DNA from: Pelolinea sp. | GTDB taxonomy: Bacteria > Chloroflexota > Anaerolineae > Anaerolineales > Anaerolineaceae | Length of the DNA stretch: 64,000 nucleotides | Direction of reading: 5' to 3' | NCBI GenBank assembly: GCA_012797975.1 | Contig: JAAZOD010000012.1 | Span: 62,001 to 126,000 of the forward strand | Part shown: in pieces, positions 15,083 to 27,318 of the stretch | How positions within the stretch are numbered: position 1 is the stretch's first letter | Layout of the letters: each line of letters begins with the position of its first letter | The notes under the pieces: generated by a model | Seen by the model: only the letters and a program-made list of their open reading frames with translations | What the model was told of the DNA's origin: nothing | Database searches by the model: none | Translations under genes and position numbers: made by a program

Positions 15083-15205
15083 GAATTGAGCATAATTGTA
15101 CCCTGTCTTCGGAAAATTCCTATCTTGTAATTTTTTGAAAATTCTATGTACTTATATTGCCGCTGCAGACATAGTATTGAAGGCTATGATCTAAAATTTA
15201 TAATT

Positions 15206-15299
15206 GGTCGCTTAGAGGGCACTGAACTCACATCAAACTAAACCCCAATAGATTTTAGGGAGCCAATAGCGAAACCGGTCAATTGAAGGCCGGTTTTTT
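15206..15299 (+). ncRNA. Structured RNA element A (same family as 27060-27147) with terminator
   Basis: Shares with element B the ordered blocks GGTCGCTT, GAGGGC, TGA, GGGAGC, AATAGCGAAACCGGTC and a terminator hairpin. GGTCGCT (15206-15212) can pair with AGCGAAACC (15268-15276) with two bulged A, closing a multibranch fold. The final ACC is also the start of the terminator arm ACCGGTC (15274-15280), which pairs with GGCCGGT (15288-15294) before six T. The two pairings exclude each other, as in a transcription-terminating riboswitch. It lies 31 bases before the surface-protein start. I cannot match it to a known riboswitch class. Confidence 0.6.
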
Positions 15300-15330: not shown

Positions 15331-17673
15331 ATGAAAAAAACAATTTTTTCGAAAGGGTTAAGAATTATCGCGGTTCTTTCATTGACCACATCACTGGTGT
15401 TCTTTGGACTGGGAAATTCAAAGATCGTCTACGCACATGGTGGGGGAGGTGCAGTGTGCGGAAATGGAGTGAAAGAAGGGGGCGAGCAATGTGATGATGG
15501 GAATACGGCCAACGGTGATGGCTGTAGTTCAAGCTGTACCATAGAACCATCGGATGTTTGTTCCAATATCGATGGAGTACAGACTTCCTATCCAAGCAAC
15601 ACGGTAAACAGCGCAGGGGCTTGTGTTTGCAAAACCTTCTACACCTGGAAAGATGGGGTTCCCAGTGAAAGTGGCTGTGAGAAATGCCAGGTTGTTCCGG
15701 AAAGCGTTGGCTTATGCCACTTTTCCCCTGGTCATGGCTGGAATTCCCAAAATCCCAGCGTCGACTCGGCGGATGTTGCCGGCCATAACGGCCACGGCTG
15801 GGATATCATCCCTGTTTTCACCGTGAAGGATGAATGCGGTAATACGGTGGTTACCTATCCCGGCAAGAATCTGGGCATGTCCTTTAGTGGCGTTACAGGG
15901 GCGCAGATTCTGGCAAATGGTTGTAAGGTGCCGGTTTGCGGTGATGGCGTAAAGGATAACAATGAACAATGCGATGACGGCAACACGGTGAACTCCGATG
16001 GCTGTACCAACTCCTGCACCTGCGGGGTTTGTGGCTGTGGAGTACCGGAGACCGATTCGGATGGTGATGGTACGCCAGACTGCCAGGATAGCTGTCCGGC
16101 CGATCCTCTGAAGACTGCTGCTGGAGTTTGTGGATGCGGCGTTGCGGAGACAGGCGATTCGGATGGTGACGGAAAATTGGATTGCATTGATGGCTGTCCG
16201 ACAGATCCCGCCAAGATTTCCCCCGGAGCCTGTGGATGCGGTAACCTGGAGACCGATTCGGATGGTGATGGCACCCCAGACTGCGTTGATGGTTGTCCGT
16301 TAGACTCTGGAAAAATTGGAGAAGGTACCTGCGGATGTGGAGTGCCGGATACTGATTCGGACGGTGATGGCTATCCAGATTGTGTCGATGGATGTCCGTC
16401 AGATTCCGGAAAGTTTGCAGAGGGAATTTGCGGATGTGGAATCCCGGATACTGATTCGGACGGCGACGGAACGGCGGATTGCCAGGATGGTTGCCCTGCT
16501 GACAGCAGCAAAACCAGCGGTGGCGTTTGCGGGTGCGGAACCCCCGATACTGATTCGGATGGCGATGGAGTTCCGGATTGCACCGACCTCTGCCCATTGA
16601 ATGGATCAAAGAACGTTCCAGGAGCATGCGGATGTGATACTCCCGATACCGATTCGGATGGCGATGGAGTTCCGGATTGTTTGGATGGCTGTGCAGATGA
16701 TGGCTCCAAGACGGAAGCCGGTATCTGCGGCTGCGGTGTGCCGGATATTGACACCGATGGCGATACGATTTTGGATTGTAATGAAGACTGCCCGCTGGAT
16801 CCGAACAAGACCGAACCCGGACTTTGCGGTTGTGGCGTGGCGGATGCGGATCTGGATGGTGATGGAACCATTGACTGCCTCGATCTCTGCCCGACCGATT
16901 ACACCAAGACCGCACCCGGACAGTGCGGCTGCGGTGTGCCGGATACCGATTCGGATGACGATACCATTGCGGACTGCAATGACAACTGCACCACAACGGC
17001 GAACGGCGATCAGGCCGATATCGATCTGGACGGAATTGGCGACCTGTGCGATATCTGCCCCTCCATTTCGAACCCTGGGCAGGAAGATAGCGACGGGGAT
17101 GGCGTTGGGGATGCCTGTGATAACTGTTCAACTTTAGCAAATCCCGATCAAGCGGATGAAAACGGCAATGGAATCGGAGACGCCTGCGAAAGTGCCGATG
17201 ATTTCAGTCTGGGTGTCGACCCGTACTGCCTAGCAGACAACAGTCTGCAGTGGTCGGTGAGCAATGGCAACGGTTTCTCCGTTCCGAATTTCACCTGGAA
17301 ACTGGATGGTGGAACATATGGAAATGGTGGACCGACCACGATCGCTCCCGGAACGATGCTGGTTGGAACGACCCCTGAAGGTACACACACCCTTAGCATC
17401 AGTTGGAACACTGGAAGCACCAGCTTCACTTTCTCGAAGACCTGCACTCCAGTCACTCCTCCTCCCGTTACTCCACCAGCTGTTGTACCGCCCTTGATCC
17501 CTGTCACCGCAGAGGAAGAAGTACTGATCCCTGTGACCGGTATTGACCTGGCTTCTCAAGTGCAGAGCAATTACTTGCAGATCGCAAAGATCAGCATGTT
17601 CGTTGGGCTGGGTTGCCTGGGGATCTCGCTAGGGATTGACGGATTCCCTCGAAAGAAGAAAGAAGATAAATAA
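15331..17673 (+). CDS. Large cysteine-rich repeat surface protein with calcium-binding-type repeats
   Basis: Exported protein of 780 residues. A signal peptide (about 1-36, ending VYAHG) is followed by two Myxococcus-type Cys-rich motifs ([19 protein letters not shown] and [15 protein letters not shown]). Ten 33-residue repeats follow, patterned CGCG[19 protein letters not shown], then two thrombospondin-type-3-like units and a beta-rich region (about 630-710). The end is a proline-rich spacer, LIPVTG, a hydrophobic stretch and RKKK. This tail resembles a sortase or other C-terminal sorting signal. DSDGDG loops normally bind calcium. ATG 15331 follows AAGGAGGAAG. Likely structural or adhesive, next to the exopolysaccharide operon; function is inferred. 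Confidence 0.8.
16030..17015 (+). repeat. Ten tandem coding repeats, about 99 bp each
   Basis: The CGCG-to-CGCG period is 33 codons (34 in the second unit) from 16030 to the tenth unit at 16924. Units differ at many silent and some coding positions, so the array is old rather than a recent expansion. It is entirely within the surface-protein gene. Confidence 0.9.
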
Positions 17674-17688
17674 AAAAATCTGTAATGA

Positions 17689-17720
17689 AAAAAGAGCCCA
17701 CCATTTGGTGGGCTCTTTTC
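17689..17720 (+). terminator. Rho-independent terminator after the surface-protein gene
   Basis: AAAAGAGCCCACCA and TGGTGGGCTCTTTT form a 14-bp stem with a two-base loop and T-rich end. It separates the surface protein from the exopolysaccharide operon. Confidence 0.9.
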
Positions 17721-17931
17721 TTATCATTGATTCATGGATCTGTAAAAAACATGACTGCAATCGTTAAGAATTAATGAAATTGTCATCTTAATAGGTATAA
17801 TTAAAAAAATTCCGGAAACCCTATTGAAAACGAACAAGCCATTGATATTTTCTATTTCAAAACAGGGCAGGAGAAGAAGATAGGTTTTTAGTGTTAAAAA
17901 GTAAAGAGTATAAAAGCCGAGACAGAGAAAA

Positions 17932-18213
17932 ATGCAATTAAAAAATCGCACCTGGTTAATGATCGTTGTGATTTGCAGGGTGCTTCTCACGCTGGGGATC
18001 ATGATGACGTTGTTTCTTGGGATGTGGATCGGATATTTCACGATCCTGATCATTTTGATCGGTGCTTTTTCTTTGATTTTGGCGATCTCGGATATCGGTA
18101 TTCTTTTTTCATTGAAGAAAAGGAAGAAGATTAATGGTGATGATCTTTCACTGAGCGATCAGTATGAAGATCAGAAGAACGAATCAATTAACAGTATCCA
18201 TGATGAGTATTAG
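17932..18213 (+). CDS. Small two-helix membrane protein heading the exopolysaccharide operon
   Basis: Unrecognised 93-residue protein with two hydrophobic helices (about 8-32 and 34-57), a basic KKRKK stretch, then an acidic, polar tail. No clear Shine-Dalgarno site precedes ATG 17932. A TATAAT at 17796-17801 without a good -35 could start a leader of about 130 bases. Its last codons overlap the start of the synthase gene by 14 bases, so the two are probably coupled. A role as a small accessory subunit of the polysaccharide synthase is inferred only from position. Confidence 0.6.
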   Translation: MQLKNRTWLMIVVICRVLLTLGIMMTLFLGMWIGYFTILIILIGAFSLILAISDIGILFSLKKRKKINGDDLSLSDQYEDQKNESINSIHDEY

Positions 18214-21200
18214 TAGCGGATTCTATTTACAGCTTTCATCGCATTATACGCCACAGAATATCTACCCGGGTATTCCGAAAGATATTTCCAAGCAATATGA
18301 TGTGGTCCCACTATGGTCTGGGAAAGACGAATATTCTATTGGCACTGCCGAGCCCGATTTTCGAGGAACCGAAGAAATGGAAAGAATCGTAAAGAAACCG
18401 GTCATTCCTTACCTATTAACTTACGCGCAGATTCAAACGCTTCAGGCTCAAATTTATAATGAAGACCAGCCACTAACGCCGGAGATAGATCTTCGTGAAA
18501 TCAATACGGTTCTCCATGGTGGAGAAAAAGAATTCTTCACCGCGGTCGATGACCGGATCAGCTCTCCGGATGGAAAACAAAAAATCCAAAAACTGGATTT
18601 GCACGAGCGTGCATATCTGGAATCGCTCGGTGTGCGCTACCAAATTCCACACATTGATCTGAATATGGTGGCTCTTGGAAAAAACCTGGCTGGTCTTATT
18701 CCTTTGCAGGAAGCAAATATGCTCCAGGTTATCCCATTATGGTGGATGGGGAATTGTCTATACCTGGGCTGTAACGCCGGCAAACTACCTGCGGATCTTG
18801 CTTCTCTTTCGAAATTTTTCCCTTTCACTGTCAAGCTGGTTTTATGTGATGAAAAACAATGGAAGGCGGCTTTTCGGACGATCTATTTGGAGCAGGAAAA
18901 ACCGAGACAGATATCCCTTGAAGAACGGCTGAAAGTTCTGCGAGAAAAATATTCTCTGGATCCGGCAGATCTGCAGCGTGCCAGAATCTACAGTTCTCAA
19001 TACAATTCCGATCTGCTCACTGCTTTATTAGAATTGAAAATAGTCACTGCGGAAATGCTGCTTGAAGTGGACTCGCAGTTGACTGGAGTGCCTATTCTTG
19101 AGGGCGGATTTCAACCTCACCAAGATTGGGCTGATCGTTTGCCTGCGGACATCGGCAGACGGCTTGAGATCATTGCGTTCGACGAAAGCGATACAACCAT
19201 TTCCATCGCTGCAAACCAGATTACCCGTGCAAAGATTGACCTGGTTCAATCTATCGGCCAAAAGAAAGTACTCCCGTTTCTCATCGATCTGCGAAGGTTA
19301 CAATCCTGGATGGAGATCGTTTATTCAACGGATGTCTTCACTTTCAACAAACCTCATTTGCTTTCCTTGAAAGATACCGTATTGACGATAGGATTTGTAT
19401 CTCAAGAACAAATGCGGGAAGTGATGGAATTTGAAGAATTGGACGACCATCAATTGGGTGAAGTCCTTAAAGATCAGAATTTCCTGGATGATATTGATCT
19501 GGCGGTCGCACTCAGTATCCAAACTGGTCTTCCTTTCGTCTTACTGGAACATGCGAACCTGCCGCAAGACTTCGGAGCAGGTTTTCCCGCCGACCTGGCT
19601 GAAAAATTCAAGCTTCTTCCCTTATTTCAACAGGAAAATACCATCTGGGTCGCCTCTCATGATCCGTTCAATGGAAAGGGATTTCATGAACTAAAAAAGC
19701 GGATGAATAAGCACATCGTACCGATCCTTGCCCCACAAAAGGTACTTATCGCCATCCTGGAACAGAAATGGGGAAGGGGACGTCCTGAAGTTTCTGGAGA
19801 AGCGCATCCGTATATTCAAAAGTTGATCCAAGCTGATTTTCTTACTCAATCTCAGGCATTTCACATGCTGCAGCTCATTGATGAGCAGGGATTGCCCTTT
19901 GATCAAGCGTTCTTGCAAGCCAGTTATTTTGATGTGCAGAAGGCGAATCAGGTTTTATCTTCTATTTTTTCAGTGCCGGTAATCGATGTGAATTTGGTGG
20001 AAGAGCAAACAGAACAGATCGATGGGCTTGGCAATAAAGTCACCAAACCTGTCTACCATGATCCGGTAGCTTTGAGTGCCGCCAGCATGATCGCTCTCAC
20101 AACCGCCAATCAATATTGTTTGCTCCCTGTTCGTAAAGAAGGGCAGCATATCCTGGTTGCTTTTGCGGACCCTGTGCAAACCCAAAATCTTGAATTGCTG
20201 AAAGGCCTTTTTTCTTTACCCATCCTGCCGGCGCTTGCCATTCGGTCGGATTTGGAAGATGCAATTGCCCGAAATCTCGGTCGAAAGAACATCGGCACTT
20301 ATTTGTTGGAAAACAGCTATATTACCCGTCGACAACTGAATGATGCTTTGGAACTCTCGAAGAAGACAGGGGTACGGCTCGGACAGGCGCTTTTGATCAA
20401 GCAGTACATTCAAGAAAAACAAATGTATGAAATTCTGGCGAAACAAGCGGAATTGCCGTTTGTTGATTTGAACAATGTTTCTATTCCGAAGGAGACTGCC
20501 CGCTTAATTGACGCAGAGGTTGAGCGCGAATATGGCATCATGCCTATCAAGGTGACCAAGAACGAACTGACATTAGCAATCGTGGACCCTTTCGACCAAA
20601 AGGCGGTCGATCTGGCGCATGAATTGACCGGCAAAAAGATAAAGCCGGTGGTTGTCACGGATGCGAATCTGGAGCAGATACTGGAAAATATTTATCATGG
20701 TGATTACACGACCATCAGCACCTCCAATTTGTTGATCCGTTCTCCTCGCGAATCCGCTTTTCATGTCTTGAGCACCGGTCAAACCATTTTCTTTTTGATA
20801 CTCTTGTTCCTTTCCATTATGATGGCGATCTTGGATTTCACCTCTTTCATGATTGTCGTCAACGAGTTGATCACGATCTTTTATATTGGATTCTCTGCCT
20901 ACAAGTTTTATCTTGTTTACAATGCTATGAACCATGACTGTGAGGTCCCCGTGTCGAAAGAAGAGATCGATGCGCTCGACCCAAGGGAACTGCCAGTCTA
21001 TACATTGCTGATCCCTGTTTATAAAGAGGCGAGCGTTTTGCCCGATCTGATGAAATCGTTGAGCCGCCTGGATTATCCAAGCACCAAGTTGGATATTAAG
21101 ATCCTGTTGGAAGCGGATGATCAGGAAACGATCCAAAGTTTTTATGACATGCATTTGCCGCCGCACTTTCGGGCTACCATTGTGCCCGGTTCACTTCCAA

Positions 21201-22153
21201 AAACAAAGCCAAAAGCTTGCAATTATGGGCTGATCCACGCGCGGGGTGAATATATCGTCATCTTTGATGCGGAAGACCGTCCGGACCCCGACCAGTTAAA
21301 AAAAGCAGTGGTCGCTTTTCAAAAATCGAGCCCCAATGTGGTCTGCATTCAGGCAAAATTGAATTACTACAACCGCCGGCAGAATTTGTTAACCCAATGG
21401 TTCACCTCGGAATATTCGATGTGGTTCGACCTGTTCTTACCCGGTTTGGACGCATCCAATGCTCCCATTCCTTTGGGTGGTACCTCGAACCATTTTAAGC
21501 GGCGTGCGCTGGCGGAGGTGGGGGCGTGGGACCCACATAATGTGACTGAAGACGCTGATCTGGGCATGCGGCTTTATAAACGCGGGTATCACACTCGTAC
21601 CATCGATTCCACCACGTATGAAGAAGCAAACAGTCGGCTCAACAACTGGTTGCGCCAGCGTTCACGCTGGATCAAGGGCTATATTCAAACCTGGCTGGTG
21701 CACATGCGCAACCCTGTCCAGTTAATGAAAGAAGTGGGGTTAAACGGATTCATCAGCTTCCAGTTTGTCACCGGTGGAACCTTCTTCGCAGCTCTGGTAA
21801 ATCCGATCTTGTGGACGATCACCACAGTCTGGTATTTAACCAAATGGCAGTTCATTCAAGAAACATTTCCAGGTTTTATCTATTACCTGAGTTCGCTCAG
21901 TTTGTATTTGGGCAATTTTGTGTTTACTTATATGAATGTGGCCGGCGCCATGCGACGCAGGCATTATGATAATGTGCGTTTTGCACTGCTCAGCCCTGTT
22001 TATTGGGGACTCATGAGCGTTGGTGCCTGGAAAGGTTTTGTTCAATTGATCACCAAACCACATTATTGGGAGAAGACAATCCACGGGTTCAGCCAGGATT
22101 ATGAAGATGAAACCCAAACAGAACCGGGGGAGGGGGAAGACCATGTTGCATAA
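18200..22153 (+). CDS. Processive GT2 polysaccharide synthase fused to about six MshEN-like modules
   Basis: 1317-residue membrane enzyme. Residues 1-840 hold about six GspE-N/MshEN-like modules, each ending in a segment like KYxVVPL (around residues 30, 165, 315, 475, 645 and 780). The last keeps both motif halves (KNIGTYLL and VRLGQALL), as in c-di-GMP-binding MshEN; earlier ones are degenerate. Two membrane helices (860-910) precede a GT2 domain (930-1167) with EADD, DAED, TEDAD and QRSRW, the D,D,D,QxxRW set of cellulose-type synthases, then further helices. There is no C-terminal PilZ region. NfrB-like proteins also join GT2 and GspE-N domains. The start is ATG 18200 or 18203, inside the previous gene's end. 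Product sugar unknown. Confidence 0.85.
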   Translation: MMSISSGFYLQLSSHYTPQNIYPGIPKDISKQYDVVPLWSGKDEYSIGTAEPDFRGTEEMERIVKKPVIPYLLTYAQIQTLQAQIYNEDQPLTPEIDLREINTVLHGGEKEFFTAVDDRISSPDGKQKIQKLDLHERAYLESLGVRYQIPHIDLNMVALGKNLAGLIPLQEANMLQVIPLWWMGNCLYLGCNAGKLPADLASLSKFFPFTVKLVLCDEKQWKAAFRTIYLEQEKPRQISLEERLKVLREKYSLDPADLQRARIYSSQYNSDLLTALLELKIVTAEMLLEVDSQLTGVPILEGGFQPHQDWADRLPADIGRRLEIIAFDESDTTISIAANQITRAKIDLVQSIGQKKVLPFLIDLRRLQSWMEIVYSTDVFTFNKPHLLSLKDTVLTIGFVSQEQMREVMEFEELDDHQLGEVLKDQNFLDDIDLAVALSIQTGLPFVLLEHANLPQDFGAGFPADLAEKFKLLPLFQQENTIWVASHDPFNGKGFHELKKRMNKHIVPILAPQKVLIAILEQKWGRGRPEVSGEAHPYIQKLIQADFLTQSQAFHMLQLIDEQGLPFDQAFLQASYFDVQKANQVLSSIFSVPVIDVNLVEEQTEQIDGLGNKVTKPVYHDPVALSAASMIALTTANQYCLLPVRKEGQHILVAFADPVQTQNLELLKGLFSLPILPALAIRSDLEDAIARNLGRKNIGTYLLENSYITRRQLNDALELSKKTGVRLGQALLIKQYIQEKQMYEILAKQAELPFVDLNNVSIPKETARLIDAEVEREYGIMPIKVTKNELTLAIVDPFDQKAVDLAHELTGKKIKPVVVTDANLEQILENIYHGDYTTISTSNLLIRSPRESAFHVLSTGQTIFFLILLFLSIMMAILDFTSFMIVVNELITIFYIGFSAYKFYLVYNAMNHDCEVPVSKEEIDALDPRELPVYTLLIPVYKEASVLPDLMKSLSRLDYPSTKLDIKILLEADDQETIQSFYDMHLPPHFRATIVPGSLPKTKPKACNYGLIHARGEYIVIFDAEDRPDPDQLKKAVVAFQKSSPNVVCIQAKLNYYNRRQNLLTQWFTSEYSMWFDLFLPGLDASNAPIPLGGTSNHFKRRALAEVGAWDPHNVTEDADLGMRLYKRGYHTRTIDSTTYEEANSRLNNWLRQRSRWIKGYIQTWLVHMRNPVQLMKEVGLNGFISFQFVTGGTFFAALVNPILWTITTVWYLTKWQFIQETFPGFIYYLSSLSLYLGNFVFTYMNVAGAMRRRHYDNVRFALLSPVYWGLMSVGAWKGFVQLITKPHYWEKTIHGFSQDYEDETQTEPGEGEDHVA

Positions 22154-23837
22154 TGCAAACCCAGCTCCCGCTGTTCCGGCTAATGCGCCTGCCTATATTC
22201 CCGAAACGAAAAGAACGCTTCGCATAGGAAAGAGTCTCTTAAGACTCCTGAAACACCCTTCCACCCATCTCTTTCTCGTTGCATTTGCATTCTATGCGAT
22301 CATCGGCATCTTCGGGAACCGTGTCTACGACATGGCAGATTATGAAGGTTTATCGCGCGTTTCGCAAGCCTTTTCTGCCGTATTCGGACGCAATCCGCAC
22401 CTCTCCGCAATCGGTTTTATTTGGCCGCCGTTGCCGGCTGTTTCTGATATTCCTTTCATCATCCTGCTGCGCCCATTTCATTTGGAAATATTGGGCGGCA
22501 CTTTCATGAGTGCCCTGTATGCCGGTTTCACGATGGTCCAGTTGAACAACATATTGAAGCGTTTTAAAGTAGAAACCGGCTGGCGTTATATCTGGCTGGC
22601 CTTGTTTGGCTTGCAGCCTCTGATCTTGCACAATGCTTCGTTGGGCATGTCAGAAACACCCTTCATCGGGTTTTTGCTGTTTTCACTCAACGGGTATTTG
22701 ACCTGGCGACAGGAGAGAAAAGATTCCGGTATTATGATGGCGGGAATGGGTGCCTGGCTGGCGCTATACTGCCGTTATGAAGCGCTGGCATGGGCCGCGA
22801 TCATGGCGGTCTGTATCTGTTGGAACTGGCTTTTCCGGACGGGCAAGACCTCGCCCGAAAAATTGGAAGCGGAGCTCTTATCTTACCTGGTCCCCCCTGC
22901 TTATGGATTCATTTTTTGGGTTTTCCTGAACTGGACGATCATGGGTGATCCGCTCTACTTTCTGACCGGACCAGGGGCAACCTCCAATACCCCGGATACG
23001 GCGCAAACGTATGGCCCCAATCATCTGTGGTACTATGCCATGGATTCCATCGGTGGTACATTGAAACTTTTGACTGAAGAAGTATCCTTTGTTGGGCCAC
23101 TGCTGGTGGTTGCATCCATTGCTCTGCTGTTATTCATCGTTTTCAAGAAACGCTGGATTGATTTCGATTTTATCTTGCTGGGCTGGTCGATTGTTCTGTT
23201 CACCTGCATGATCGGATACCGGGGCTATCTCCCTGCCTTCAGCCGTTATTTCATCTGGCTGATCCCGGGTGGATTGATCGTAACGGGAGCGGTCTATTCC
23301 TCCTGTGAGAAGAAATGGATGCGATTGGCCGTGAACTTTTCATTGATCGTATTAATGGTGTTTCCGATCATCCATGAGGTGGGCAAGAAATGGGACCTCA
23401 TCGAAGAGCCAATGCCGCAAAAGCTCCTGTTATCCTGGATCATTGCCGGGGAACAACAGTCTGTTTCGTATGAGAATGATTCGTTGGGTGAAATGCAGAT
23501 GATCGCGGATTATCTGAATGCACAACCCGATGATACGATCACCATCGTGGACCATTCCATTTCTATGTCTTTGGCACTGATGGTTGATCATCCCAAGAAC
23601 CTTGTAATGACCACCGATATGGATTTCTTCGATATTTTGGAAAATCCTATCGGGAGGGCTGATCAGATCCTGGTTCCTTATCCATCTTTTGATGCCCGTG
23701 GAAGATCGCAGGTGTTGAAATACTATCCGGGAATTTATGAAGGATTTGAAACATGGACGACCTTCGCTCATGAATTTTCCTCCCCGTTACCATGGAGATT
23801 GTTTACTATTAACCAAACCACCCAAATTGGAAATTAA
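22143..23837 (+). CDS. Polytopic GT-C-like membrane glycosyltransferase
   Basis: 564-residue protein with roughly ten hydrophobic helices and a soluble C-terminal domain from about residue 430. The early loop with NRVYDMADYEG and the GFIWPPLPA motif resemble GT-C enzymes that use polyprenyl-phosphate sugars. ATG 22143 follows GGGGGAGGGGG and overlaps the synthase stop by 11 bases; an earlier in-frame start at 22101 lies inside the synthase. It could decorate the polymer or supply an outer-leaflet sugar; the family match is by motif and topology only. Confidence 0.6.
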   Translation: MLHNANPAPAVPANAPAYIPETKRTLRIGKSLLRLLKHPSTHLFLVAFAFYAIIGIFGNRVYDMADYEGLSRVSQAFSAVFGRNPHLSAIGFIWPPLPAVSDIPFIILLRPFHLEILGGTFMSALYAGFTMVQLNNILKRFKVETGWRYIWLALFGLQPLILHNASLGMSETPFIGFLLFSLNGYLTWRQERKDSGIMMAGMGAWLALYCRYEALAWAAIMAVCICWNWLFRTGKTSPEKLEAELLSYLVPPAYGFIFWVFLNWTIMGDPLYFLTGPGATSNTPDTAQTYGPNHLWYYAMDSIGGTLKLLTEEVSFVGPLLVVASIALLLFIVFKKRWIDFDFILLGWSIVLFTCMIGYRGYLPAFSRYFIWLIPGGLIVTGAVYSSCEKKWMRLAVNFSLIVLMVFPIIHEVGKKWDLIEEPMPQKLLLSWIIAGEQQSVSYENDSLGEMQMIADYLNAQPDDTITIVDHSISMSLALMVDHPKNLVMTTDMDFFDILENPIGRADQILVPYPSFDARGRSQVLKYYPGIYEGFETWTTFAHEFSSPLPWRLFTINQTTQIGN

Positions 23838-23847
23838 GGAGTGACCA

Positions 23848-26037
23848 ATGAAGTACTCAATTGAAAAAAATCTTATCAGTATTTTGATCGTTCTAACATT
23901 CCTGGCCAGTACGGCAGCCATCCCTGTTGGTAAGTTTGCCCAAGAACAAAGCAATGTCTACACTTTTCAAGAGCTGGGTATTCTATCCGGGGATGATTCA
24001 TTTAAAGGGATCAACACGGTCAAGGAGTACGGTTTTCAGTGGCCATCCATATGGGAACCGTTGGGAAGTAGCACACTCACATTGAAATTTAGCCATGCGA
24101 AAGCACTCAGCGAAAGATCTTCCATCGCAGTGGAAGTGAACGGAACCCTACTAACCAGCGTCGAACTTACCAGTGCCAATAGCGACACTGGCGAGATGAC
24201 GGTCGAAATTCCAAAAGAATTGCTGGTTGCAGGATATAATCGAGTGCGGCTGTCTCTCTACCTTGGATACGAGAGTTTTGACTGCATGGATCTGGATGAT
24301 GACCTGCTGTGGTTCACAGTTCATGCCGGCTCTTTTTTCTCCTTTCAATACCAGGTTAAGGATGCGACCCCGTTGCTTCATGAATTTCCCCAATCCTTTG
24401 TCAGCAATTCGGGAATCATCAAGAATTCGGTGACATTTATACTCCCCATCGATCCTACCTCTGCAGAGGTTAATGCGGCCGCCCTGATCAGTGCCAAACT
24501 TGGCCAATATGCAAACTGGCGTACGGTGGATATCCATTTTGCGTCCGAAGCAGATGTGCAGCTCAATGCCAATGCCATTCAGGGCAACATCATCCTGGTT
24601 GGACGTGCGGATCATCTGGTTTTGTTGAACAATTTAAATGCTCCATGGACCTTGGAAGATGGAAAATTGAAAGAAAAGGATGGAACTGCATTTCCGGAAA
24701 ATAGCGGGGTGTTGTGGAGTGGACAGTTCTATGCGGATGCCAAGCGAGCCATTTTGGTCGTCACTGGCGATAGCGATGCTGCAGTGGTGAAAGCAGCCAA
24801 AGCGCTCACCCGCGATTCCATTTTGGCTCAACTTCCCGATACCCTTGCTGTGGTCGGTCAGGTGCCCGAATCGGTCTCGGAGCAGGAAACATTCACAGCT
24901 ACTTTTACATTGGAGAAATACAGCTATCGAGATGTGACCGCCTGGGGTACATCGGAACAGTCCATCACGTATGCTTTGCCATTTGCGTCGTCATGGAAGG
25001 TCATGGATGATGTCAGCATGCGGCTGCATTTTGCCCATACTGATTTCTCTAATTTGGACGAGTCCTATGTGACGGTGGAAGTGAATGGCACTCCCGCTGG
25101 CACGATTGCACTGAGCTCTAAAAATGCCAATGATGCCTGGGTCGACCTTGTGCTGCCTGCGCGCCTGTTCGACTTTGGCGATAATACCATTACCATTCTC
25201 AGCAATATTAATTTACCCGATGCTTACCTCGACAGCCGTTATGATTGTCTGGAAGACAATACCACCGCTGCCTGGCTGGTGATCTATGCAGATACCGAGT
25301 TCACTGTACCGCTCGGACCGTCAACCGACGTGCTTTCCATCAATGAATTTCCCTATGCCTTTATCGGAAGTTCCGACCTTTCAGATTTCGGAGTGGTCCT
25401 TCCGGATCAACCGAATGTTTCCATCAATGAATTGGTGATCCGGCTCAGTGAGTTCCTAGGTCATTATCTAAACAGCGAGGGGATCGGATTACGAATTTAC
25501 AACTCTGCAGAATTGGCTTCGCTCTCTGAGAAGCCCTCTCATCTGATGTTGATCGGTATACCGACTCAAAACTCTGAGATCGCGAAGATCAATGACCGTC
25601 TGCCCCAATCTTTTGAAGCAGGCACCAACAACCCCGTGGCGCAGGAGGGAATTGTTCAAACCGATACAAAAAATGCGGATATCGGATACCTGGAAGCTTT
25701 GCTCGATGTGAATGGGAATCCGATATTGGTTGCTACCGGGACGACGGATCAGGGTATTATCTGGGCAGTGAACGCCTTGATGGATACCACGAATATCAAG
25801 AATCTTTATGGCGATCTGGCTCTCACCCGTGCAGAAGGATCCATTTCCTCTGCAATGATCCAGGATACAGAAAAATTGATCCCTGTATCCGATGAAAAAC
25901 CCATTCAGCCGCAAGTTGAAAAGAATGAACTTGCTTTGTGGATCGGCATTGTATTTGCAGTGATTACTTTTGCAGTTGTGGTTGGAAAAGCTATCGATGA
26001 GACTGTAAAAAAGAATAAGGCGAGGAAACATGGCTAA
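23848..26037 (+). CDS. BcsB-like cellulose-synthase co-subunit
   Basis: 729-residue envelope protein with an N-terminal signal or anchor, a large exported part and one C-terminal helix (about 695-713) followed by basic residues. The exported part is a duplicated unit: a jelly-roll segment with VEVNGTLLTSVEL and YESFDCMDLDD, then a flavodoxin-like segment; the second copy has VEVNGTPAGTIAL and SRYDCLEDN. Two carbohydrate-binding plus flavodoxin-like pairs and a C-terminal anchor are the BcsB layout. BcsB guides the glucan from BcsA and its anchor is needed for synthesis. ATG 23848 follows AAGGAG. It lies 10 bases after the GT-C gene and overlaps the next gene by 8. Confidence 0.85.
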   Translation: MKYSIEKNLISILIVLTFLASTAAIPVGKFAQEQSNVYTFQELGILSGDDSFKGINTVKEYGFQWPSIWEPLGSSTLTLKFSHAKALSERSSIAVEVNGTLLTSVELTSANSDTGEMTVEIPKELLVAGYNRVRLSLYLGYESFDCMDLDDDLLWFTVHAGSFFSFQYQVKDATPLLHEFPQSFVSNSGIIKNSVTFILPIDPTSAEVNAAALISAKLGQYANWRTVDIHFASEADVQLNANAIQGNIILVGRADHLVLLNNLNAPWTLEDGKLKEKDGTAFPENSGVLWSGQFYADAKRAILVVTGDSDAAVVKAAKALTRDSILAQLPDTLAVVGQVPESVSEQETFTATFTLEKYSYRDVTAWGTSEQSITYALPFASSWKVMDDVSMRLHFAHTDFSNLDESYVTVEVNGTPAGTIALSSKNANDAWVDLVLPARLFDFGDNTITILSNINLPDAYLDSRYDCLEDNTTAAWLVIYADTEFTVPLGPSTDVLSINEFPYAFIGSSDLSDFGVVLPDQPNVSINELVIRLSEFLGHYLNSEGIGLRIYNSAELASLSEKPSHLMLIGIPTQNSEIAKINDRLPQSFEAGTNNPVAQEGIVQTDTKNADIGYLEALLDVNGNPILVATGTTDQGIIWAVNALMDTTNIKNLYGDLALTRAEGSISSAMIQDTEKLIPVSDEKPIQPQVEKNELALWIGIVFAVITFAVVVGKAIDETVKKNKARKHG

Positions 26038-26914
26038 TAAAAGAATCTCTCAGGGCAATTTATTGATCTATGTGGCAATCTTGGCCGTCGGTTTGGTCAT
26101 CAGCTCAGGAATGATCGTTTTTGGGGGTGAACAGACCATTTTTCTTGGTCTTTCCTTGCTGGCTTTTGTATCGGTGTTGACGATCCTGCACTTTAATGGG
26201 TGGTTGGAATGGACAGCATGCGGAATCAGTATCTTAACCTATGCATATGTGCAATATTCCCTCCCGGGGCAGTTGATGCAGGTACTTTTCCGCACAGGTA
26301 TCTTTGCTGCTGCGTTGTTGCTTTCTTTTGTTCTATCTCGGGTGATGCGAAAGAAGGTCGATTATTCCGTGAATCAATATGCTTCCAATAATGTTCTGAT
26401 CGAAGAGCTTACCCTGCATGATTCCATGGGCCTTCTAAAATGGAAACCATTTCAGCAAAAGTTGGATGAGGAATTCCTGCGCAGCCGCAGAACGAAAAAG
26501 CCTGTCAGCGTGATGTTGTTGCGTGTTTTCAAGGTTAAGGAACTGACCAATGCAGGCAGCCCGGAAAGAGCGGAAGAGTTGATGAAAGCAACGGCTGCTG
26601 TTTGTAAGAAAGTATTGCGCACCCTGGATGTGGTTTCGCGTTACGATCGAGAAACATTGAGCATGATTTTGCCGGAAACCTCGGATGAGGAAGCCAAGGT
26701 CGCTGCTGGGCGTTTGATACAAGGAGTTACACAGCAGGTGAATACTGCAGTGTATGCCGGTATCGCCAGCTTTCCGAATGATGCAGTGTCTGTTGACAAG
26801 ATCACCGCTCGCGCACAAGCAGCGCTTGATTATGCTGTGAATTCTGAAAAAGAGATGGTTTCTTTCGCACAGATGAATGCGGGAAATGAAAAAGAAAAAA
26901 GAAAAAAGGAATGA
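26030..26914 (+). CDS. Membrane GGDEF protein, degenerate active site with conserved I-site
   Basis: 294-residue protein with about four membrane helices (8-112) and a C-terminal GGDEF domain (about 130-282). The catalytic GGDEF reads DRETL (206-210), so cyclase activity is unlikely. The inhibitory-site motif RxxD is intact as RTLD (197-200), at the same spacing to the signature as in PleD. Such domains, for example PelD, act as c-di-GMP receptors. It overlaps the BcsB-like gene by 8 bases and ends the operon. Its likely role is to sense c-di-GMP for the synthase complex. Loss of catalysis is seen directly; receptor function is inferred. Confidence 0.82.
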   Translation: MANKRISQGNLLIYVAILAVGLVISSGMIVFGGEQTIFLGLSLLAFVSVLTILHFNGWLEWTACGISILTYAYVQYSLPGQLMQVLFRTGIFAAALLLSFVLSRVMRKKVDYSVNQYASNNVLIEELTLHDSMGLLKWKPFQQKLDEEFLRSRRTKKPVSVMLLRVFKVKELTNAGSPERAEELMKATAAVCKKVLRTLDVVSRYDRETLSMILPETSDEEAKVAAGRLIQGVTQQVNTAVYAGIASFPNDAVSVDKITARAQAALDYAVNSEKEMVSFAQMNAGNEKEKRKKE

Positions 26915-26974: not shown

Positions 26975-27059
26975 AAAATGGTGAAAAGATTGGAAAGAGT
27001 GATACAATATTAAAGTAGTCGAAAAAATTATTGAATGCAATGAACTGAGGTTTGAACTT

Positions 27060-27147
27060 GGTCGCTTTGGGAGGGCTGAGAGATCGCCCTTCGCAACAAT
27101 CTCAGGGAGCAAATAGCGAAACCGGTCATCAAAGACCGGTTTTTTTA
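27060..27147 (+). ncRNA. Structured RNA element B (same family as 15206-15299) with terminator
   Basis: GGTCGCT (27060-27066) can pair with AGCGAAACC (27115-27123) with an AA bulge. The overlapping ACCGGTC (27121-27127) pairs with GACCGGT (27134-27140) and runs into seven T. Inside, AGGGC/GCCCT and CTGAG/CTCAG hairpins are possible. The ordered conserved blocks match element A, while the linkers differ. The next gene, proB, lies 170 bases on, behind another terminator, so element B may be a stand-alone small RNA or a distant leader. Confidence 0.6.
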
Positions 27148-27197
27148 TTGGTAGTTGCACAAAAATACAAAGCAATCTTCGACAAACGCCGCCTTAA

Positions 27198-27226
27198 GAG
27201 CCACCTATTTAATGGGTGGCTTTTTT
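27198..27226 (+). terminator. Second terminator before proB
   Basis: AGCCACC (27199-27205) pairs with GGTGGCT (27215-27221) and is followed by six T (27221-27226). It insulates proB from element B. Confidence 0.75.
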
Positions 27227-27318
27227 AGACCGATTTTCTGATGTCAAAAGAACGTGTTTTTATGCTCTATCCTTATGCTGTATTTTGATATACTTGGGGG
27301 AATTATCGGGAGGACGAT

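Follow-up and report, generated by a model that had tools for sequence, protein, structure and literature searches.

Several bacterial machines for exopolysaccharide (EPS) synthesis have been described that respond to cyclic di-GMP (c-di-GMP) at the level of protein. Two modes of control are relevant here, one through a degenerate GGDEF protein (pseudo-GGDEF) that keeps its RxxD I-site and is encoded beside BcsB, and one through an MshEN domain carried by a family 2 glycosyltransferase (GT2) itself. Here, we describe an operon from Pelolinea sp. (Chloroflexota; Anaerolineaceae) in which the two appear to be joined. It lies within a stretch of 64,000 nucleotides (assembly GCA_012797975.1, contig JAAZOD010000012.1, positions 62,001 to 126,000 of the forward strand; "the window" below), and its central product is a GT2 synthase with six N-terminal MshEN modules.

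The Pss system of Listeria (PssC, PssD and PssE) and the YdaKLMN system of Bacillus combine, in one operon, a GT2, a BcsB ortholog (PssD) and a membrane-bound degenerate GGDEF protein with RxxD. PssE reads DKDDA and has its RxxD five residues before that; its gene neighbours that of the BcsB ortholog, and the protein is needed for EPS and binds c-di-GMP with a dissociation constant (Kd) of 0.79 uM (PMC4125290); the RxxD of YdaK is required for EPS (PMC5422440). The window operon differs in its six N-terminal modules and its GT-C partner, and PssC is not described with MshEN in the passages available. PelD of the Pel system is a similar EPS receptor, made of transmembrane helices and a degenerate GGDEF domain with RxxD, but it contains a GAF domain and its glycosyltransferase partner is a soluble GT4 (PMC8461298).

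The precedent for the other mode is NfrB of E. coli, a c-di-GMP-activated glycosyltransferase that combines GT2 and MshEN in one protein, carries a half-degenerate motif and binds c-di-GMP with a Kd of 1.0 uM (PMC8669469); E. coli encodes no other MshEN protein. Its MshEN domain is C-terminal and its partners are NfrA and YbcH, in contrast to the BcsB and pseudo-GGDEF proteins found here; a BcsB homologue has been reported near nfr in Achromobacter. Fusions of MshEN to glycosyltransferases are already in print, and XpsE indicates that MshEN can lose binding (PMC5013675). Tandem MshEN (GSPII) domains occur in Thermus PilF, a traffic ATPase with three modules and no glycosyltransferase, where only two of the three bind c-di-GMP and no arginine is needed; a single Gln-to-Glu change in GSPII-B keeps a Kd of 0.46-0.95 uM, and changing both Gln residues abolished binding (PMC11731258). 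Searches of the literature by titles and some passages found no EPS synthase with an array of MshEN modules at its N terminus, and word searches found no paper on c-di-GMP-controlled EPS in Chloroflexota within the library searched. MshEN-glycosyltransferase fusions, NfrB, Pss and Yda are known already; what appears to be new here is their combination with an enlarged and, by its motifs, mostly non-sensing N-terminal array.

The synthase matches GT2 families of Pfam (best E 3.9e-28) and carries the motifs of processive GT2 enzymes, namely a DxD-like motif, TED and QxxRW (Table 1). A named-genome scan, from which the best 80 of 363 relatives were taken, gave 79 loci, and text matches in their open reading frames (ORFs) found QxxRW in 79, DA[ED]D in 78 and TED in 71, seven of these ORFs being cut by contig ends. 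In a predicted model of residues 130-1329 (pLDDT 90.4, pTM 0.66) the glycosyltransferase (GT) part aligns to bacterial BcsA entries with Z of 18.6-25.9. The protein thus shares with the BcsAB cellulose synthase its GT2 fold, motifs and BcsB partner, but it differs in the C-terminal PilZ domain, which was not found in the protein by Pfam at matches up to E 10 (HMMER filters drop most above about 0.1), and in its score against the NCBIfam CelA equivalog, 79.1 of 699.1 bits and far under the cut-off. Against NCBIfam NfrB it scores 122 of 1170 bits, which does not reach the cut-off, and its MshEN modules are N-terminal. PilZ was not found in the genome either (E 0.001), and a PilZ domain hidden in the synthase or elsewhere in the genome is ruled out by these profile searches.

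The synthase contains six stretches that match MshEN of Pfam (E 2.6e-61). The sequence-only reading had proposed such an array on a BcsA-like synthase in place of PilZ, in an operon with BcsB-like, GT-C-like and GGDEF proteins, and this much holds: MshEN similarity and a BcsB-family partner were found, and PilZ was not. That an EPS synthase can carry MshEN where others carry PilZ is seen here by architecture, and it is not new, being known from NfrB.

Which of the six modules could sense c-di-GMP? The Pfam MshEN model describes the C-subdomain, while the 53-residue c-di-GMP-binding motif of the N-subdomain is a separate NCBIfam model, NF053729, with a cut-off of 38 bits. When this model was scanned piece by piece, only module 6 passed; module 4 reached 24.0 bits, and modules 1, 2, 3 and 5 were without a match. 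Half-site II of module 6 is largely intact, with Gly47 replaced by Gln in the window protein (V. cholerae MshE numbering throughout). Among 24 six-module proteins (that of the window and 23 others), Gly11 and Gly40 of this module are kept in all 24 and Arg38, Gln61, Leu25 and Leu29 in 23 each. The mean majority fraction of its N-subdomain is 0.62, against 0.30-0.39 for modules 2-5, while the C-subdomains stand at 0.51 and 0.50 in modules 5 and 6 and at 0.35-0.42 in the others, with 0.77 for the GT part. In the model, module 6 (model residues 578-715) aligns with MshE bound to c-di-GMP (5htl_B) over 138 residues with Z 19.6, a root-mean-square deviation of 2.2 and 27% identity, and it drew MshE, PilF and PilB chains among the 50 rows listed from a structural search (VIA-align; module 1 lies outside the model).

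The proposal of c-di-GMP control through the array therefore remains plausible for module 6, which passes the motif model, and not for the array as a whole, since modules 1-5 fail it; the idea that all six modules are c-di-GMP sites is ruled out on the same ground. Modules 1-5 look, by their motif states, like a degenerate scaffold in this protein. In two relatives (L116 and L122) the c-di-GMP motif of module 4 is almost complete, and an ancestral array may therefore have contained several sites.

The last protein of the operon matches Pfam GGDEF (E 3.3e-13) and has three hydrophobic segments above threshold. Its signature reads DRETL, and an RTLD I-site lies five residues upstream, an arrangement shared with PssE and YdaK and known to occur next to BcsB in the absence of PilZ. 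Among 22 alignable proteins (the window and 21 loci, one truncated locus having been dropped and the relatives having been found with a hidden Markov model (HMM) built from the same family), GG[DE]EF occurs in none and RxxD in 17. A working cyclase is ruled out by the lost motif. The protein is better read as a second c-di-GMP receptor than as a signal source, because the active site is lost and the I-site is kept; the family assignment of the sequence-only reading stands, and the two features that change its meaning had not been reported. The signal itself probably comes from elsewhere in the 2.57 Mb genome (98.5% complete), which contains ten GGDEF matches, the seven strongest all with GG[DE]EF (two weak ones were left out of the motif check), and two EAL domains. 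Since it has seven intact cyclase domains and two EAL domains, the genome probably makes c-di-GMP. No MshEN was found in the genome outside the synthase, and in 13 genomes with the synthase (11 with the long and 2 with the short form; completeness 76-99%) every MshEN match lies within that synthase and a PilZ match is missing in 11.

The 729-residue protein passes Pfam BcsB (PF03170; E 8.3e-53, 180 bits, cut-off 21) and matches the solved BcsB chains 7l2z_B (6.2e-08) and 9b8v_G (6.3e-08) by phmmer, although NCBIfam BcsB equivalogs match it far under their cut-offs (best 80 of 750 bits). The 578-residue protein has no Pfam match and a weak NCBIfam match only (30.9 of 200 bits). Its predicted model (pLDDT 86.4) matches the GT-C enzymes OST, ALG12, PglB and ArnT in Foldseek (E 1.2e-06 to 1.8e-04, with a TM-score of only about 0.4-0.5), which makes it a probable glycosyltransferase. 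A secreted polymer, as proposed from the sequence alone, is the likely product; the suggestion that it is glucan-like was supported by no test made.

In the survey described below, the six-module form was seen in one phylum and one clade. Within the family, 27 of 147 genomes match the synthase at E 1e-20, 12 of them over the GT2 domain only (22-30% identity), leaving 15 genomes with true relatives, two of which are cut fragments. At 1e-60, 59 of 400 genomes of a phylum sample and 16 of 396 of a class sample match, mostly over the GT part or the GT part and one module. Module numbers were counted in the 79 loci with HMMs built and iterated on their ORFs at lenient E-values: six in 23, one to four in 28 and none in 28, contig-cut proteins included. 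All 23 six-module loci are assigned to Chloroflexota or its classes, and every one of the 23 uncut synthases of at least 1281 residues has six modules, the next longest, L179 (1164 residues) and L108 (1004 residues), having one and four. Pfam MshEN at E 0.001 counts six in five, five in four and four in two of the eleven long-form genomes of the family. In a tree from which the seven contig-cut ORFs were omitted, and in which the label of the window protein was set by hand from Pfam, the six-module rows fall within one supported set of 25 (24 with six modules plus L108; support 99/94); the two row sets used (A2, 49 rows; A3, 42 rows) were chosen by us. Of the ORFs left out, L121, L124 and L125 may be cut long forms; the genome of L124 is assigned to Dehalococcoidia and that of L125 to Solirubrobacteraceae.

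Genes for BcsB and the pseudo-GGDEF protein both lie beside the synthase in 18 of the 23 six-module loci; in four of the remaining five, little flanking sequence is available on one side. The pair was found in two of the 28 loci with one to four modules (L108 and L121) and in one of the 28 with none (L139); L121 and L139 are contig-cut, and the match in L108 extends upstream of its frame. Since the six-module loci form a single clade, this linkage is not independent evidence. GT-C homologues are present in 68 of the 79 loci (22/23, 25/28 and 21/28 for six, one to four and no modules), and GT2 and GT-C may therefore be the older core. Two other groups of relatives came up in the same survey. 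Eight Bacillota loci (L141, L145, L147, L152, L153, L157, L159 and L166; Desulfosporosinus, Paenibacillus, Caproicibacter, Clostridium and others, with cultured strains) encode GT2 synthases in which two or three MshEN N-subdomains stand in tandem with a single C-subdomain; several of these synthases have near-canonical motifs. Between L142 and L178, another 25 uncut loci (Armatimonadota, Omnitrophota, Planctomycetota and others) encode the same GT2 without MshEN, mostly with a GT-C homologue nearby and no BcsB.

The best explanation is that the operon encodes a synthase-dependent EPS machine switched post-translationally by c-di-GMP, a Pss/Yda-type machine crossed with MshEN control of the NfrB type, and we consider this probably correct. 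The GT2 would polymerise the chain and extrude it through its own membrane part, and BcsB, extracytoplasmic and anchored by its C-terminal segment, would take the chain over. The GT-C protein might add or start sugars from a lipid carrier. On this model two proteins of the machine would respond to c-di-GMP. The pseudo-GGDEF protein in the membrane would bind it at the RxxD I-site, like PssE and as proposed for YdaK, and module 6 of the synthase, which lies just before the first membrane segment, would bind it like NfrB and relieve inhibition of the catalytic domain. Modules 1-5 would not bind c-di-GMP in this organism and would act as a spacer or as a docking scaffold for partner subunits.

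Several observations weigh against this model. Half-site I of module 6 is without Arg9 and Gln32 (Asn and Ser in the window), and across the 24 six-module proteins Arg9 is kept in none and Gln32 in one; given these losses, the affinity of module 6 for c-di-GMP may be low. In structural comparison the GT part is closer to an archaeal mannosyltransferase (6yv7_A, Z 28.2), its top match, than to BcsA. In five of the 22 pseudo-GGDEF proteins, those of Pelolinea and Flexilinea among them, the I-site reads KxxD or TxxD. The six-module locus L164 is a true exception to the linkage, since neither BcsB nor pseudo-GGDEF is encoded in the roughly 9.9 kb to each side. The operon shares with Pss and Yda the layout of GT2, BcsB and a membrane degenerate GGDEF with RxxD, and the likeness is one judged by layout. 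The GT-C protein has its proposed role from its predicted fold, and the MshEN protein is not the sole possible c-di-GMP receptor, because riboswitches of two classes were found in the genome.

Perhaps the pseudo-GGDEF protein is the only protein receptor of the machine, and the whole array, module 6 included, is structural or a docking device that no longer binds. Published accounts have Pss and Yda act through their pseudo-GGDEF proteins, the motif is lost in modules 1-5, and XpsE offers an example of MshEN without binding. The two losses in module 6 would fit as well, but the NfrB sequence has Pro and Arg at the positions of Arg9 and Gln32, the same two gaps, and NfrB binds. Because NfrB binds with both gaps and PilF GSPII-B tolerates a single Gln-to-Glu change, module 6 is a plausible, if unproven, c-di-GMP site. 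It is also difficult to see why no more than one of the 24 proteins should have lost any of six motif residues of this module when conservation is far lower in the N-subdomains of modules 2-5, and we regard a purely structural array as unlikely. The opposite extreme, that the array is the main switch, with several modules reading c-di-GMP and the pseudo-GGDEF protein as a membrane scaffold, would suit the six Pfam matches and the fuller module 4 motif of some relatives. Only module 6 passes the motif model in this protein, however, and the conservation of RxxD in 17 of 22 proteins would be left unexplained by a mere scaffold, so we hold this version to be quite improbable.

There is a slim chance that the machine has no c-di-GMP regulation at the protein level and is controlled by transcription or by another ligand. 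The locus is flanked, as transcriptional control would have it, by the two c-di-GMP-II-GAG riboswitches that were found when 150 of 228 candidates in the genome were scored, but a strong terminator-like hairpin at 17690-17719 stands between the EPS genes and riboswitch 1 with its gene, and conserved receptor motifs in two subunits would need another reason. The same hairpin rules out a c-di-GMP riboswitch in the window as leader of the EPS operon. Finally, a long shot within the model of a c-di-GMP-switched machine is that the array is a docking rail of fixed number. Each of the six modules would hold one pseudo-GGDEF and/or BcsB, one synthase would template a six-fold BcsB-type crown, and c-di-GMP at module 6 and the I-sites would fire the ring; BcsB is reported to be hexameric in E. 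coli (PMC8461298). If this were true, polysaccharide secretion would have a new means of setting stoichiometry, in which a covalent array does the counting. More generally, six modules that are held across a clade and are, by their motifs, mostly non-sensing raise the question of what MshEN folds do without ligand binding. The system is testable, since cultured carriers exist in Pelolinea submarina and Flexilinea flocculi.

The ends of all five operon genes overlap or abut, all on the plus strand, as the sequence-only reading had described (Table 1). The start of the synthase is probably at 18200/18203 rather than 18164, because the ORF of the ortholog in L044 opens just before the matching Met. 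A small protein like the 93-residue protein lies directly 5' of the synthase in six of nine relatives (three of the same genus and three diverged, judged by eye). A promoter scan gave 4 hits where 4.0 would be expected by chance.

Table 1. Features of the EPS locus and its flanks (window coordinates)
Feature	Position	Strand	Basis or remark
c-di-GMP-II-GAG riboswitch aptamer 1	15170..15289	+	RF03169 44.4 bits (gathering 40); RF01786 53.4 (gathering 53.5, missed)
780-aa thrombospondin type 3 repeat protein, probably surface protein	15331..17673	+	Pfam TSP_3 2.7e-13
93-aa protein, two hydrophobic segments	17932..18213	+	no Pfam match
GT2 synthase (P0001), 1329 aa	18164..22153	+	likely true start 18200/18203
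Synthase MshEN modules 1-5	18236..20281	+	Pfam C-subdomain matches at residues 25-101, 159-245, 313-389, 455-534, 639-706; N-subdomains degenerate
Synthase MshEN module 6, residues 707-846	20282..20701	+	NF053729 57.4 bits; Pfam C-subdomain match 763-846
GT2 membrane domain, residues about 870-1313, with two hydrophobic segments followed by DAED 1035, TED 1128, QRSRW 1165	20771..22102	+	
GT-C-fold membrane protein (P0002), 578 aa, probable glycosyltransferase	22101..23837	+	predicted model and Foldseek
BcsB-family co-subunit (P0003), 729 aa, hydrophobic segment at both ends	23848..26037	+	Pfam BcsB
Membrane pseudo-GGDEF protein (P0004)	26030..26914	+	DRETL in place of GGDEF, RTLD I-site retained
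c-di-GMP-II-GAG riboswitch aptamer 2	27024..27136	+	RF03169 42.4 bits (gathering 40); RF01786 48.5 (gathering 53.5, missed)

Upstream of the operon, the gene for the 780-residue protein is not clearly part of it, because the hairpin at 17690-17719 follows that gene. It is probably the target of riboswitch 1, which lies 41 nt before it. The 3' P1 strand of aptamer 1 overlaps a terminator-like hairpin at 15271-15297 and forms its first arm, which suggests an ON switch triggered by the ligand. Aptamer 2, after the last operon gene, has the same build and its own terminator-like hairpin (27118-27143); between it and proB (27319) there are short frames only, of up to 67 residues on the plus strand, and it looks like an orphan. 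A second terminator-like repeat was seen by eye near 27197-27230, where the scan did not call it. Five c-di-GMP-I riboswitches were found in the genome and none on this contig (150 of 215 candidates scored).

Among relatives, a riboswitch scan at the gathering score found one in one of seven loci in one set (L046) and in none of seven in another. In L046 it lies about 360 nt upstream of the 93-residue protein gene and is followed by a 22-codon reading frame, perhaps all that is left of the surface-protein gene. A laxer scan of L044, L045 and L046 added L044 (39.2 bits, below gathering), at the same place as aptamer 2, and found none in L045. In two same-genus genomes, genes that we take to be aldehyde:ferredoxin-oxidoreductase-like and VOC-like lie between the EPS operon and proBA (L045, 15445-17960; L046, oriented, 15939-18469).

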